A stretch of DNA of 64,000 bases, taken from NCBI RefSeq assembly GCF_014764365.1, contig NZ_CP061718.1, positions 2,062,501 through 2,126,500 on the forward strand, written 5' to 3'. Below the pieces are notes generated by a model. That model did no database searches. It saw only the letters and a list, made by a program, of their open reading frames with translations, and was not told the origin of the DNA. This DNA is from Roseococcus microcysteis. GTDB lineage: Bacteria > Pseudomonadota > Alphaproteobacteria > Acetobacterales > Acetobacteraceae. Positions 30,667 through 36,681 of this stretch are shown one piece after another. Both the position numbers and the translations under genes were made by a program. The number at the start of each line of letters is the position of its first letter. The first letter of the stretch is position 1.

Positions 30667-31827
30667 GCGCGCCCCTGCCGCTCGGCCTCATGGCCTTCGG
30701 CGGCTTCGCCATCGGCGCGGGCATGCGCCTGCTGGACCCGCTTCTGCCCATGATCGCGGTGGGGTTCGGCACCACCGTGGCCGGTGCCGCCATCCTGATC
30801 GCGGCCTTCGCCCTGCCCTATGGCGCGGGGCAGCTGGCCACCGGGCCGCTGGGCGACCGGCTGGGCAAGGTGCGCGTGGCGAGCTTCGCGCTGCTGGCCT
30901 ATGGGCTGGTCAGCATGGCCTCGGCCCTCGCGCAGGGACTGACGGAGCTGACGGTGATGCGCGCGCTGGCCGGGCTGTTCGCCGGCGCCGTGATTCCGCT
31001 GATGATGGCGCATATCGGCGACAGCGTGCCCTATGAGGAGCGCCAGGCGGCCATCGGCCGCTTCCTGACGGGGATGGTCTTCGCGCAGATGCTGGCGGGC
31101 CCGCTCTCCGGCGTGCTGGGCGAGAATTTCGGCTGGCAGGCGAGTTTCCTGGCGGCCGGCGGCCTGGCGGTGACGGCGGGCGGGCTGATGGCCTGGAAGC
31201 TGCTGCGCGGCGCGCCCCCGCATGCACGGCCGGCGGCGGGGATGTTCTCCGGCTTCGGCAAGCTGCTGCGGGCGCGGGCGGGGCGCAAGCTGCTGATGCT
31301 GGCGGGGCTGAACGGCGCGCTGCTGTTCGGCGGCGCCTTCCCCTTCGTGGCGAGTTTTTTGATCGAGCGCTTCGGGCTTTCGGCCGGCGAGGCGGGGCTG
31401 GTGATGGCGGGCTTCGGGATCGGCGCCTTCGTCTACACGCGCATCGCCAAGCGTCTGGTGCGGCGCTTCGGGGAGCGGGGGCTGCTGGGGCTGGGCGGGG
31501 CGTCGCTGATGGGGCTGCTGCTGCTGATTTCGGTGGCCTGGGCCTGGTGGGTGGTGCTGGTAGCGCAGCTTTGCATCGGCCTCGCCTTCTTCATGTTCCA
31601 CGGGGTGCTGCAGGCGCGCGCGACCGAGGCGCTGCCGGAGGCGCGGGGCACGGCCGTCAGCGCCTTCGCCATGGCACTGTTCCTGGGGCAGACGCTGGGG
31701 ACGCTGGTGTTCGCGGCGGTGATCGCGGGGGCGGATTACCGGCTGGCGTTTGCGATGGCGGGGGTGGGGGTTGGGGGTTGGCGTGGTGGGCGCGGCGGTA
31801 AGCCTAGCTGTCGAAACCCGTGCCTAG
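30663..31827 (+). CDS. MFS transporter (frameshift near 31760)
   Basis: Major facilitator of about 387 residues with twelve hydrophobic segments and the MFS loop GPLGDRLGKVR after helix 2. The GTG start at 30663 overlaps the previous stop. Close to the 3' end, in a stretch with three GGGGG runs (31757-31775), one extra G moves the frame. Removing it gives the natural ending GVGVVGAAVSLAVETRA and TAG at 31827; uncorrected, the frame runs on into the AT-rich island. Substrate unknown; resembles drug/sugar exporters. Confidence 0.82.
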
Positions 31828-31909
31828 AAATGACAACCCTTTGCCGGTCAATCTTGCGTAGACATCTACAACGCCCGACCATAAACTTTCGACGGTTGTG
31901 GAGTCATCA

Positions 31910-32563
31910 ATGCAACTTCCCTATCTGGCTTCTCCCGGTGTCATCCGACGTATTTTTGAAAAGATGCAGGAAGCGCGCCGGCCAGAACGCTTCACAACGG
32001 ATTTTCTGGAAACGAAGCTTGGACAAAGCGGCGGAAGCGCCAGGGCAATCATACCTCTACTAAAGCGGATGGGATTCCTTAACTCAGACGGTAGCCCGAC
32101 AAAATTATATGATCAGTTTCGTAACGAAGAAACAAGAAAAGCAGCGGTGGCTGAAGGAGCAAGGACCGCATATAAGGACTTATTTGATCGAAATGACTTT
32201 GCCTACAGTCTGTCTCGAGAGAAACTGACTTCCCTAATTACAGAAATGACAGGACTTGAAAAAGATTCAACAGTTATAAAATGTACAGTCGCGACCTTTT
32301 GGCAGCTTAAGGAACTTGCGGATTTTGAGGTGAATTTGGCGGGTGCCAGTCCCGGTGTTGATACTGAACCCCTCAATATTGTTCCGCGACATGCGCCAGA
32401 CACCCATCAGCCGACGTCGGCGGCATCTTCGGACCGCCAGAGCCAGAACGTCAGGCTGAGCGTAGGATATACAATCAATTTGAATTTGCCAGAGACTACA
32501 AACCCCGACGTGTTCAATGCAATTTTCAAGGCCCTAAGGGAGCATTTATTGCAGGAAAAATGA
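31910..32563 (+). CDS. DUF5343 domain protein (probable HEPN partner)
   Basis: 217 residues from ATG 31910 (GGAG 8 nt upstream; a GTG at 31898 is also in frame). Residues 1-140 match the DUF5343 pattern as I know it: an N-terminal YLASPGVIRRIFEKM segment, a winged-helix-like KLGQSGGSARAIIPLLKRMGF, GSPTKLYDQFR, and a helical second half. The C-terminal 70 residues include a polar linker then VGYTINLNLPE. The stop overlaps the HEPN gene (ATGA). Function is unknown; by position it may be an antitoxin, sensor or DNA-binding partner. Confidence 0.8.
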   Translation: MQLPYLASPGVIRRIFEKMQEARRPERFTTDFLETKLGQSGGSARAIIPLLKRMGFLNSDGSPTKLYDQFRNEETRKAAVAEGARTAYKDLFDRNDFAYSLSREKLTSLITEMTGLEKDSTVIKCTVATFWQLKELADFEVNLAGASPGVDTEPLNIVPRHAPDTHQPTSAASSDRQSQNVRLSVGYTINLNLPETTNPDVFNAIFKALREHLLQEK

Positions 32564-33141
32564 AAGACCTTCATGCAATCAAGCTGTTTGGGCTAAATAA
32601 CTTAGCCATCGAAAGCGAGATTCGTCGCCTTGAGCGCGAACTCAGCATTAACCTTGGCCATCACAATATAGTTAAAAAAGAGGATGAAAGTAGCTATTTT
32701 CCGCAGTTCGATTACGACATTCGCAAAGAAGCGGCCGAAATGGCCGCACATTATCAAATTTTCTACTGCCTGGAGAATTTTATACGTAAGCTAGTTGTGG
32801 AGCGGCTTAAGGAAACTCATGGACCAGATTGGTGGGTCAAGGCCGTTCCAGAGAATGTTCGCAATAACGCCCAGATAAATCATAAAAAAGAACTATCGAG
32901 TGGTATGACACTTAGATCTTCGGACCTCATTGACTATACAACATTTGGAGAGCTTGGCGAGATTATAAAATCTAATTGGGATCTATTTGGAGAGAGCTTT
33001 CGAGATCTCGGAGCTGTTCAACGTATACTTTATAATTTGAACCTACTGAGAGCGCCAATTGCTCACTGCAAATTGCTGGCCGAGGATGAGGTGCTGCGCC
33101 TTAGGTTGAGTTTGCGTGACTGGTTTCGCCAGATGAGTTGA
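32560..33141 (+). CDS. Swt1-like HEPN-domain protein, putative RNase
   Basis: 193 residues. An N-terminal charged segment precedes an all-helical domain like the Swt1-family HEPN: YCLENFIRKLVVERL (residues 69-83) and, in the last helices, RAPIAH (164-169), an exact R-x4-H motif, the catalytic signature of HEPN ribonucleases. The ATG overlaps the upstream stop. HEPN proteins act as RNases in toxin-antitoxin and abortive-infection systems. Codon use is AT-rich like its partner. Stops 87 nt before argG. Confidence 0.82.
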   Translation: MKDLHAIKLFGLNNLAIESEIRRLERELSINLGHHNIVKKEDESSYFPQFDYDIRKEAAEMAAHYQIFYCLENFIRKLVVERLKETHGPDWWVKAVPENVRNNAQINHKKELSSGMTLRSSDLIDYTTFGELGEIIKSNWDLFGESFRDLGAVQRILYNLNLLRAPIAHCKLLAEDEVLRLRLSLRDWFRQMS

Positions 33142-33228
33142 TCGCACTCTTTCGTTGAAGGTGGCTTGCTCACGATGGCCGGCACTGGCATCCAGCCGGC
33201 TCCACATAGCCGAAAGCGACAGAGATAA

Positions 33229-34464
33229 ATGCGCGTCGCCAACATCAAAAAGGTCGTCCTCGCCTACTCCGGCGGGCTCGACACCTCCGTCATCCTCAAA
33301 TGGCTCCAGACCACCTATGGCTGCGAGGTGGTGACCTTCACCGCCGATCTCGGCCAGGGTGAGGAGCTGGGGCCGGCGCGGGACAAGGCGCTGATGCTCG
33401 GCATCAAGCCCGAGAACGTCTACATGGACGACCTGCGCGAAACCTTCGTGAAGGACTTCGTCTTCCCCATGTTCCGCGCCAACGCGCTGTATGAGGGGAT
33501 GTACCTGCTCGGCACCTCCATCGCCCGCCCCCTCATCGCCCAGCGGCAGATCGAGATCGCGGAGCAGGTGGGCGCCGACGCCGTCTCCCACGGCGCCACC
33601 GGCAAGGGCAATGACCAGGTCCGGTTCGAGCTGAGCTATTACGCGCTGAAGCCCGACATCAAGATCATCGCGCCCTGGCGCGAATGGGACCTCACCAGCC
33701 GCACCCGCCTCATCCAGTTCGCCGAGGAACACCAGATCCCCATCGCGAAGGACAAGCGCGGTGAGGCGCCCTTCTCCGTGGACGCCAACCTCCTGCACAG
33801 CAGCAGCGAGGGCAAGATCCTGGAAGAGCCCTGGGACGCGCCGGATGAGATGGTGTGGCAGCGCACCATCAGCCCCATGGACGCGCCCGACACCCCCACC
33901 GAGATCACCATCCAGTTCAAGAACGGCGACGCGGTCGGCATCAATGGCGAGGCCCTGTCCCCCGCCACGCTGCTGACGAAGCTGAACGCGCTGGGCAAGG
34001 CCAACGGCATCGGCCGGCTGGACCTGGTGGAAAACCGCTTCGTCGGCATGAAGTCCCGCGGCTGCTATGAGACGCCGGGCGGCACCATCCTCTCCGTCGC
34101 GCACCGCGCCATGGAGAGCATCACGCTGGACCGTGAGGCCGCGCACCTCAAGGACAGCCTGATGCCGCGCTATGCGGAGATCATCTACAACGGCTTCTGG
34201 TTCGCGCCGGAGCGCCGGATGCTCCAGGCGCTGATCGATGCCAGCCAGGCCAGCGTGGAGGGCGAGGTTCGCCTCAAGCTCTACAAGGGCAACACCATCG
34301 TGACGGGCCGCCGCTCGCCGCACAGCCTGTACTCGATGAAGCACGTGACCTTCGAGGAAGACCAGGGCGCCTATGACCAGTTCGACGCCCAGGGCTTCAT
34401 CAAGCTGAACGCGCTGCGGCTGCGGCTGGGCGCCATGGCGGGGCGGCGCGGCGGGGCGCTGTAG
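33229..34464 (+). CDS. argG: Argininosuccinate synthase
   Basis: Condenses citrulline and aspartate with ATP in arginine synthesis. P-loop-like [12 protein letters not shown] near residue 12, [13 protein letters not shown] and [11 protein letters not shown] are the family signatures. 411 residues from ATG 33229. Its normal GC content resumes at once after the AT-rich island. No other arginine genes are nearby. It converges on the kinase gene with about 31 nt between stops and no terminator seen. Confidence 0.95.
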
Positions 34465-34495: not shown

Positions 34496-36681
34496 CTACC
34501 GGGCCCGCGTCTCCACCATCACGGCGCGGGCCGCGACCTGCCCGCCCGCGCCGCGGCGCGCCTGGTCGAGTGCTGCGGCCAGGGCGGGGACCGTTTCCTC
34601 GTCGGGGCGGGGGTGGCGAAGAGCGGCCGCTCCGACGCCACCACCAGCACGAGTTCCAGCCCGAAGGGCTCGTCAATGATCCAGGGGAAGTCCGGGCTGG
34701 TCTCGCGCATGTTCACGCGGGCGCCGGGCGCCATGGGGCGTTCGCGGATCAGCTGCAGCGCGTTCCCGTCATGCATCACGAACCAGATGTTCAGGTGCGC
34801 GGCCCATTGCGGCATCTGCAGGGCCAGTTCCATCTGGTCGTTGCGGCGCAACAGGCGGGCACGCGGCTCCACCTCCAGCCCCGTGCCGGGTGCCGCGGTG
34901 ATGGGGCGGATGGCGGCCAGCACCTCGCAATAGGGGGCGTCGAAGACATCGGCGGCGAGGCGCAGGGTCAGGTTCGCCTCGGCGGCGGCGCGGCGGAGGG
35001 CCGCGGCGTCCTCCTGGTGCAGGAAGCCGTTGACGACGAAGCCCGAACCCTCCGGCGCCTGTGACACCACGCCGCAGCGCACGCGGCCCAGGATGTCGGC
35101 CAGGATGGCGGCGGGTGCCGGGGCCGGCACGAGAACAGGCGCCTGCGGCTGCACCAGCACGGGCGGCGGCGGTTCGGGGCGCGGCTGCGCCACCGGTGGC
35201 GTTGGCTCCGGACGGGGTTGCGCCACGGGCGGCGCTGGCGGTTCGGGGCGTGGCTGTGCCACCGGTGGCGCGGGCGGCTCCGGCCGGGGTTGCGCAACCG
35301 GGGGCGCGGGCGGCTCTGGACGCGGTTGCGCCACGGGTGGCTCCGGCTCAGGCCGGGGCTGCACCACCGGCGGCGCGGGCGGCTCCGGACGCGGCTGGGC
35401 CACAGGCGGCGGCGTCACGGGCGGCGCAGGCGGCGGCTCGGGCCGTGGCTGCGCGACCGGCGGGGCCGGGGGAGGTTCGGATGGCGGCTGGGGCTGCGCC
35501 ACCGGCGGCGCGGGCGGAGAGGCAGGCTCAGGGCGTGGCTCGGCCACAGGCGGCGCCTGCAAGGCGGCCGGTGCCTCCGGCTGGGGCGAGGGCGGCGTCA
35601 AAACCAGCGCCTGTTGCTGCTGCGGCGTCGGCGCGGGCGGCGCCTCGCCACGCGGCAGCAGGAAGACCACGGCGCCCACCACCGCCGCGACGGCCAATCC
35701 CGCCCCGGCCAGGAGGGCCGGCGACACCCCACCCTTCTTCGCGGGCGGCGGCGGCGCGGCGGGCGGAGGCGCCATGGCGGTCGCCCGGGTCTCATCTCCC
35801 CGCCGGGCGCGCGCGGCCTCCAGCAGCCCGGCCGCGAAGGCGCGGGCGTCGGGGTAGCGCTTCGCCGGGTCTTTCGCGAGCGCCCGCGCCAGCACCGCGT
35901 CGAAGGCGGGCGTCGCCAGGAAGGAGATGCGCGAGGGCGGCTCCGGCTCGGTGGTCAGGATGGCCTGGGTGACGGCGTCGGGGTGGTCGCCGGTGAAGGG
36001 CTTCTTCTCCGTCAGCAGCTCGTAGAGAAGGACGCCGGCGGCCCAGATGTCCACGCGGTGGTCGAAGGGCAGGCTCTTGGCCTGTTCGGGCGCCATATAG
36101 GCCGGCGTGCCGATGAAGCTCTCGGCCGCAGGCCGGGCGCCGGCCACCACCGTCACGTCATCGGCGAATTCGGGGCGGGAGCGGGCGATGCCGAAATCGG
36201 TCAGCTTCACCTCGCCGGAGGAGGTGGCGACCGTCAGCATGATGTTGGCGGGCTTGATGTCGCAATGGATCACGCCCTGATCGTGGCAATGCGCCAGCGC
36301 ATCGAGCACCTGCACCACCAGGCGGACGATTTCGGGCAGGGTCAGGCGGGTGCCGCCACGGATCAGGTCGCGCAGGGAGCCGCCTTCCACCAGCTCCATC
36401 ACCATCCAGCCGGTGCCTTGCTCCTCGCCGAAATCATAGACGCCGACGATGTGCTCGTGCTTCAGCCCGCCCGCCACCTGCGCCTCGCGCCGGAAGCGCT
36501 GGAAAGCGGCCATGCTCTCGGGGTCGCCGGGGATGGGCGGGTCGGCCAGCTTGATGGCGACGCGGCGGCGGATGGTGGTGTCGAAGGCGGCGAAGACGCG
36601 GCCCATGCCGCCCCGGCCGAGCAATTCCTGCCACTGGTAGCGCTTGGGCAGGCCGCTCGGGAGCGGTTCGGACTCGCTCAT
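34496..36681 (-). CDS. Transmembrane Ser/Thr protein kinase with Pro-rich linker and DUF4384 domain (frameshift near 34611)
   Basis: Eukaryote-type kinase: glycine loop GRGGMG (22-27), Lys44, HCDIKPAN (139-146), DFG (162-164), APE (197-199). A transmembrane helix follows (319-342), then about 160 residues of Pro-Ala-Val-Gln-Pro-Arg repeats and a C-terminal region resembling DUF4384 (FVMHDGNALQLI), probably periplasmic. Near residue 690 a CCCCC run lost one base; the corrected end is PRPDEETVPALAA...VETRAR with TAG at 34496, 728 residues. It lies 13 nt after the ompA-like gene, suggesting an envelope-sensing pair. Confidence 0.88.
35164..35556 (-). repeat. Tandem proline-rich coding repeats in the kinase gene
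   Basis: Codons about 376-506 encode degenerate copies of PEPPAPPVAQPR; three nearly identical 12-residue units lie at residues about 456-491. At DNA level this is a set of roughly 36-bp repeats, so copy number may vary by slippage and assemblies may collapse it. Confidence 0.8.

Follow-up and report, generated by a model that had tools for sequence, protein, structure and literature searches.

What is a pair of small genes with A/T-ending codons doing between an MFS gene and argG of Roseococcus microcysteis? A preliminary description, made from the letters of a 64,000-nucleotide stretch of this genome (the window), had read the pair as a candidate toxin-antitoxin or phage-defence cassette. 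Gene A (31910..32563, + strand) encodes a DUF5343 protein of 217 aa, and gene B (32560..33141, + strand) encodes a Swt1-like HEPN protein of 193 aa. As had been described, the two overlap in an ATGA (32560..32563, +), which by the ORF coordinates is the stop of A and the start of B and which likely couples their translation. Gene A starts with ATG, with a GTG upstream at 31898 as a possible alternative. A sigma-70-like promoter match upstream of A (31859..31887, +) is weak (9/12), and the region's three promoter-like sites do not significantly exceed the number in shuffled sequence, which averages 1.3 (sd 1.4). The pair itself is real and not a product of chance, because B has 142 confirmed relatives by homology in the genome collection.

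The A/T-ending codons are indeed unlike those of the neighbours: GC3 is 0.45 in gene A and 0.44 in gene B, compared with 0.87-0.94 in the six neighbouring genes. Across 45 further ORFs of the window GC3 averages 0.89 (sd 0.06, minimum 0.65), in a biased control set in which high GC3 was favoured and ORFs below 0.5 were excluded. The GC minimum of the whole 64 kb (0.447) falls in the 1-kb stretch 32001-33000, and this lowest GC, together with the ends of same-genus homology, delimits an AT-rich acquired insert (31803..33228, no strand assigned) that runs from the MFS stop codon to argG. The position of the pair between these two genes was thus correctly given, but the MFS gene cannot be called strictly intact. 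Set against its closest relative (G003, L113), a G-run near 31770 is shorter by one G in the window, which puts the final MFS codons out of frame and lets the reading frame stay open as far as 32063, inside gene A. The missing G may be a sequencing error. Further along the window, at 34519-36681, a Ser/Thr-kinase-like ORF carries a long proline-rich run of repeated PPVAQPRPEP-like units, as judged by eye.

Both proteins match family models. In Pfam, A matches DUF5343 (PF17278, E 6.4e-47) and B matches HEPN_Swt1 (PF18731, E 5.2e-12), each exceeding the curated cut-off, and in NCBIfam neither was matched at E 1. In PADLOC-DB 2.0.0, A matches PDC-M34A (PDLC04589, E 5.8e-51, residues 3-213), and B, adjacent to it, matches PDC-M34B (PDLC04592, E 4.4e-39, residues 1-192). 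Judged by these profile matches, the pair is a member of the PADLOC candidate system PDC-M34.

The preliminary description had pointed to an R-x4-H motif and a Swt1-like segment in the second protein, and both readings hold. The motif, RAPIAH, which fits the R-x4-6-H pattern of HEPN superfamily RNases, occupies residues 164-169 (33049..33066, +) at the end of a predicted helix (150-168), as located by alignment and model. R164 and H169 do not vary across the aligned B proteins (82 of 82, the window's included), nor do F129-L132, L160-N161 and other positions; this alignment drops L032 and L040 (from the genomes of L004 and L006), L075 (at a contig end) and L096 (both genes broken). The AlphaFold model of B has a pLDDT of 90. 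Against the PDB, Foldseek gave no row at E 0.001, and its top row was AbiF bound to ncRNA (probability 0.96, E 0.28, TM 0.43). On VIA re-alignment the leading rows were Csm6' (Z 7.7), AbiF-ncRNA (7.4) and the C-terminal domain of yeast Swt1 (6.7), and seven of the best ten were HEPN entries, the further ones being 2q00, AbiA, HI0074 and 7bxo, whose title is toxin-antitoxin with AMP-PNP and which we take to be HEPN-MNT. The remaining three were unrelated helical proteins; Z below 13 can be common among helical proteins, so that the values of 5-8 for B are middling. Csm6, Swt1, AbiF, 2q00, the AbiA C-terminal domain and HI0074 (1jog) all appear as HEPN in the available sections of PMC3710099. 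Taking the agreeing structure names, the Pfam model PF18731 and the invariant motif together, we regard the assignment of B to the HEPN superfamily, with a predicted all-helical fold, as sound.

Protein A is predicted to consist of three parts. The DUF5343 domain (residues 4-142 by Pfam; 31919..32335, +) is confidently predicted in the structure model and helical. It is followed by a variable linker (residues 143-180; 32336..32449, +) that is predicted to be disordered (pLDDT 48-68 by block of ten) and is the least conserved part of A, and by a conserved C-terminal tail (residues 181-217; 32450..32560, +), for which we propose a role as a docking motif on the basis of its conservation and of related tails found with other HEPN partners. 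Conservation peaks in residues 181-210, with a mean information of 3.3-3.5 bits compared with 2.2-3.0 for the DUF5343 domain. Docking motifs have this layout, a short conserved tail that follows a disordered linker, and A would thereby dock on B. Residues about 5-69 of the model align with GntR-type winged helices (Z 3.0-3.4, rmsd 2.3-2.7 A over about 60 residues), which weakly suggests a winged-helix-like N-terminus. Foldseek returned no match for A at E 0.001 among the PDB and viral models. The best VIA rows for A were 3bhw (Z 5.6) and SspB (Z 5.4); naming a fold family for A from these was rejected because the Z values are too weak. Sequence searches of solved structures with A and B found nothing meaningful.

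Do the two genes form a unit, as the cassette reading implies? A scan with the HEPN alignment found 142 relatives of B, and in the best 80 of these 142, A lies directly upstream of B on the same strand at 78 loci; at the two others, B begins 62 and 1 bases from a contig end. The pair thus holds together across genomes. The spacing between A and B ranges from -56 to +17 bases in the 78 loci, except at L096 (3381-4603, from a metagenome-assembled genome), where both genes are frame-broken. A is fragmentary at three of the 78 loci, being broken in L030 and L094 and cut by a contig end in L085. The two broken copies, an in-frame stop at L030:1634-2293 and a frameshift at L094:4514-5247, stand beside an intact B in metagenome-assembled genomes and may be assembly errors. 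A and B have also diverged together: their distance matrices correlate with r = 0.80 (Spearman 0.50) over 77 aligned pairs, a value of r that 0 of 2000 permutations reached. From the 77-row alignment (A4), other loci were dropped where A is broken, truncated, missing or too long, and a 64-row alignment (A6) omits L004-L006 and L111 together with other rows whose A start is long or uncertain.

The distribution of the pair is wide. A tree of B with 77 rows, for which L004-L006, L110 and L111 of the 82-row alignment were left out, carries 12 phylum labels with 19 label changes, compared with a shuffled mean of 24.6 and a least possible number of 11. The labels are scattered yet clustered, and single between-phylum transfers are therefore unproved by this tree. 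In phage and plasmid collections A had no match, and B had one distant plasmid match (29%, on a Sphaerospermopsis plasmid). The Citrobacter relative of B had no phage match, and its sole plasmid match was that same plasmid; at the DNA level, the Citrobacter pair was missing from E. coli complete genomes. Among viral contigs there were no matches for A and two for B. A contig of the viral collection (L110:1-6406) holds the pair about 2 kb from HK97 prohead protease-like and major capsid-like ORFs, and by eye this contig looks like a prophage or a gene transfer agent. In Citrobacter youngae (L105:2192-4616) an ORF weakly matching DzbB lies after the pair and a P4-type integrase-like ORF, again by eye, comes next, which suggests that the pair is island cargo there. 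Two further copies (L066:7300-9198 and L076:6877-8784) were seen by eye just downstream of a thiC-like gene, possibly another recurrent insertion place.

Is the pair foreign to its host, as its composition suggests? The source genome, a single contig of 4.2 Mb, contains one DUF5343 gene and one HEPN_Swt1 gene. DUF5343 was present in only 2 of 100 genomes searched, the window's own counted and several of the 100 being incomplete: it was absent from all 20 other genomes of the genus (0/20) and from all 39 other genomes of the family (0/39), and it was found in 1 of 40 genomes of the class. Homology to the nearest same-genus relatives stops on the left at 31794-31802, at the MFS stop codon or shortly ahead of it, and earlier in more distant ones, and restarts on the right at 33210-33253. 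The MFS gene and argG lie on one contig within 3 kb in 15 of 21 genus genomes, and empty sites exist in which the aligned MFS and argG ends are 60 bp (G002), 107 bp (G016) or 222 bp (G012) apart. On these sequence comparisons, the gene pair was acquired horizontally and recently, in line with its foreign composition.

The same junction holds other small, differing inserts in relatives of the genus (window 31802-33253; L133, L134, L135, L113, L015, L017). In G010 the insert encodes an Eco57I-type (RM-type) methylase and a control-protein-like HTH protein, besides a 309-aa ORF without a match; in G019 it is an AbiU/AIPR gene split in two pieces; in G009, a PIN toxin paired with a MazE-type antitoxin; in G004, a PIN protein; and in G014, an 875-aa ORF with HSDR_N and KAP matches below the cut-off only. 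In G003 the MFS gene and argG are on different contigs, and Drt8-like reverse-transcriptase pieces adjoin the MFS gene; the scan of the G020 junction gave no match. Defence or toxin-antitoxin genes with family support are thus present at the junction in 5 of the 15 linked genomes, the window's included, a count for this one junction that rests on scans of the inserts of G004, G009, G010, G014 and G019, plus G003 and G020, with G006, G007, G008, G011, G015 and G018 left out. No integrase was noticed in the junction inserts. On the right-hand side, homology restarts inside argG in G003 (33253) and G010 (33245), and their inserts therefore bring their own first argG codons; the recombination edge lies within the argG start in these two genomes (L009 and L010 compared with window 33229-33253). 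An AT-rich stretch of 0.5 kb was also seen at the junction in L013. The MFS-argG junction of this genus is a ready hunting place for small defence cassettes.

The preliminary description had proposed to check whether the pair sits in defence islands, and such a placement found no support. We compared 145 of the 388 proteins encoded within 3 kb of the pair with 148 of the 253 encoded beyond 6 kb, using PADLOC models at E 1e-10; ORFs came from simple greedy calling, and spurious ones are present in both sets. The near set matched 70 families and the far set 56, these being counts of families and not of distinct proteins. Among the matches listed (25 of 70 near and 25 of 56 far), nearly all families had one member; the near ones include type IIG RM, PtuA, PDC-S24, PDC-M03B, PD-Lambda-2_B, ATPase_I-A and CARF_2OG, and the far ones cyclase, PDC-S05, PDC-S23, PDC-S41, RtcR and mad2 (two members). 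Matches are sparse within 3 kb and beyond 6 kb alike, and no enrichment of PADLOC models near the pair is shown. In several of ten loci viewed by eye, the pair stands single between housekeeping-like genes.

Which protein, then, does DUF5343 accompany elsewhere? Among 398 sampled genomes of the phylum, DUF5343 occurs in 11, in 10 of them above the cut-off. Six have a Swt1-like HEPN partner, recognized by Pfam (G000, G631), by the alignment (G086, G246, G303) or by eye (G700). Three (G131, G656, G299) encode a DUF4145-like protein directly downstream of DUF5343, with Pfam E-values of 0.0028, 0.0021 and 0.00035, respectively, all under the Pfam cut-off; in G131 the A gene is split across two frames. 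Of the two others, G286 has a DUF5343 fragment near a transposase-like ORF (by eye), and in G373 DUF5343 is under the cut-off and no HEPN-type neighbour was seen. A search with the tail only gave matches in 5 of 289 genomes of the class, four of which (G000, G086, G472, G483) combine DUF5343 with a HEPN-family partner; the fifth match (15 residues, E 0.008) looks like chance. G483 has Ymh (PF09509, E 1.8e-27) as the partner, and this protein (L146) also matches the PADLOC models PD-Lambda-3_B (E 8e-14) and Aga_HEPN (E 2e-12), the latter presumably Argonaute-associated. Searching with the variant tail of G299 gave matches in 4 of 398 genomes, three already among the DUF5343 set and a fourth (G389; L161:835-2921) where, as seen by eye, a transposase-like ORF takes the place of the HEPN partner beside a tail-bearing DUF5343-like gene.

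By profile comparison, the A proteins of G483 (E 1e-12) and G299 (E 2e-6) are related to the window's A family, whereas no similarity links their Ymh and DUF4145-like partners to the Swt1-like proteins (probability < 1%). Therefore, one A family precedes three HEPN families, the evidence for exchange being three DUF4145-like loci and one Ymh locus. DUF4145 and Ymh are both HEPN families in the available sections of PMC3710099. The DUF4145-like partners seem, by eye, to lack the R of R-x4-H. The DUF5343 proteins beside DUF4145-like or Ymh partners match the PDC-M34A model only, and the analysis ties PDC-M34 to two other HEPN families via this shared partner gene. Based on these observations, we tentatively propose, at somewhat less than an even chance, that DUF5343 is a general, exchangeable controller of HEPN RNases that has been re-paired with at least three dissimilar families (Swt1-like, DUF4145-like and Ymh), in which a winged-helix-like sensor, a disordered linker and a tail serving as a common HEPN-docking tag are combined and the N-terminal domain sets the trigger. 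If the tail is such a tag, one control mechanism would span several dissimilar RNases, and further HEPN effector systems would be recognizable from the tail alone.

For the pair in the window, we give about an even chance to its being a horizontally acquired two-gene conflict cassette, a PDC-M34 member in which A controls the HEPN RNase B by abortive-defence or toxin-antitoxin logic. Judging by fold and motif, B would be a HEPN endoribonuclease, probably a dimer, with R164 and H169 at the active site. A would be the dedicated controller of B: its conserved C-terminal tail would dock on B, its DUF5343 domain, winged-helix-like, might take a signal or bind nucleic acid, and the flexible linker would connect the two. 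In the resting cell A would hold B inactive or unaimed; on infection, for example through a phage signal acting on the DUF5343 domain, or on loss of A, B would cut RNA, arresting growth and limiting the spread of phage. The RNase activity, docking, inhibition, trigger and phage protection of the pair are what we infer. The preliminary description had likewise cast DUF5343 as antitoxin or sensor and HEPN as the RNA-cutting effector, a reading that gains from the strict pairing, the HEPN assignment, the invariant motif, the horizontal acquisition and the defence or toxin-antitoxin genes at the same site in some relatives, and draws no support from the comparison on defence islands.

The conflict-cassette reading is supported because both genes match PDC-M34, R164 and H169 are invariant, pairing is strict, A and B diverge in a correlated manner, the family spans 12 phylum labels and is absent from the rest of the genus sample, defence or toxin-antitoxin genes occupy the junction in relatives, and DUF5343 has other HEPN partners. 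It is weakened because no defence enrichment near the pair could be seen and the surroundings in several of the ten loci viewed are housekeeping-like; because the phylum labels in the tree of B cluster more than shuffled ones; because the structural Z values of B are middling, with unrelated helical proteins just below and no solved relative by sequence; and because the DUF4145-like partners are below the cut-off and apparently R-less. In addition, a strict antidote role of A is doubtful because L030 and L094 keep an intact B beside a broken A, unless these are assembly errors.

The same observations bear on other explanations. The pair could be a plain type II toxin-antitoxin module, with A as a labile antitoxin that binds DNA, represses the operon and uses its tail to block B, selected for self-maintenance and not for phage defence. 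The usual antitoxin layout is there (the partner gene first, a 4-nt overlap, a winged-helix-like N-terminus, a disordered linker and a conserved tail), and B is never without A in the 78 loci with room; however, a search of the sequence upstream of A gave no operator-like inverted repeat, A is longer than B, and A is broken beside an intact B in the two metagenome-assembled loci, and we consider this explanation unlikely, at perhaps one chance in several. An obligate two-subunit nuclease, in which B depends on A for its activity, A being a targeting or sensing subunit and not an inhibitor, and in which both are required for defence, would accommodate those two loci as well as the strict pairing and the correlated divergence, and A is weakly like SspB and like ROQ/winged-helix nucleic-acid-binding folds. 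That a single A family has exchanged its HEPN partners suits an inhibitor equally, however, and no nucleic-acid ligand is known, which leaves this explanation improbable too, although worth keeping in mind. Housekeeping or regulatory RNA processing with no tie to genetic conflict would fit the single loci beside housekeeping-like genes, but the scatter over 12 phylum labels, the absence from 20 other genus genomes and the foreign composition are unlike a housekeeping gene and make it very unlikely. An AbiF-like system, with the HEPN protein under the control of a small non-coding RNA, is suggested by the best Foldseek match of B but is hardly credible, as Rfam gave no match at E up to 1 in 31600-33400 and the 250-nt flanks of the loci share no non-coding element (2 matching sequence pairs among 79 upstream flanks and 2 among 81 downstream).

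How does the cassette compare with known systems? With HEPN-MNT (type VII toxin-antitoxin) it shares the two-gene HEPN module and the R-x4-H RNase motif, but the partner there is a nucleotidyltransferase, whereas DUF5343 is the only Pfam match in A at E up to 1. With type II toxin-antitoxin systems it shares two small adjacent genes on the same strand and strict pairing (78/80). B is close to the Abi2/AbiF/AbiD and Swt1-like families in carrying a Swt1-like Pfam model and in the alignment of its model with AbiF and yeast Swt1, as these families are described in part of PMC3710099. AbiF has an ncRNA (RF03085, according to the available part of PMC12165695), and none was found at the window pair. 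Unlike members of the Swt1-like families, B stands alone, with no fusion to a PIN domain or an AAA ATPase, and its motif is intact, in contrast to eukaryotic Swt1, which is inactive according to the same portion of PMC3710099. The PADLOC models PD-Lambda-3_B and Aga_HEPN are matched by the Ymh partner of a DUF5343 relative (L146) and not by the window pair.

The system closest to the window pair is PDC-M34 itself, both of whose components are matched nearly over their full length with no difference in components, in a listing that comes without a mechanism. The available parts of PMC12988326 (2026) describe the PDC class as putative systems found via 'guilt by embedding', most of them still to be validated, and cite a 2024 preprint for them (Payne et al. 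2024). The preliminary description knew of no characterised system of this exact pair; this stands in that none was found in the literature, but the pair was already catalogued as a candidate. Searches for DUF5343, PDC-M34 and HEPN_Swt1/PF18731 found no paper, in a literature scope that lay outside most subscription journals and preprints, and no experiment on the PDC-M34 family; the accessible portions of PMC3710099, PMC12988326 and PMC12839542 do not name a DUF5343-HEPN pair. PDC-M34 is thus a candidate that spans many phyla and for which the literature holds no test that we found, and it gains from this locus a testable anatomy: a putative catalytic pair in R164 and H169 of B, a proposed docking tail in A and a disordered linker.
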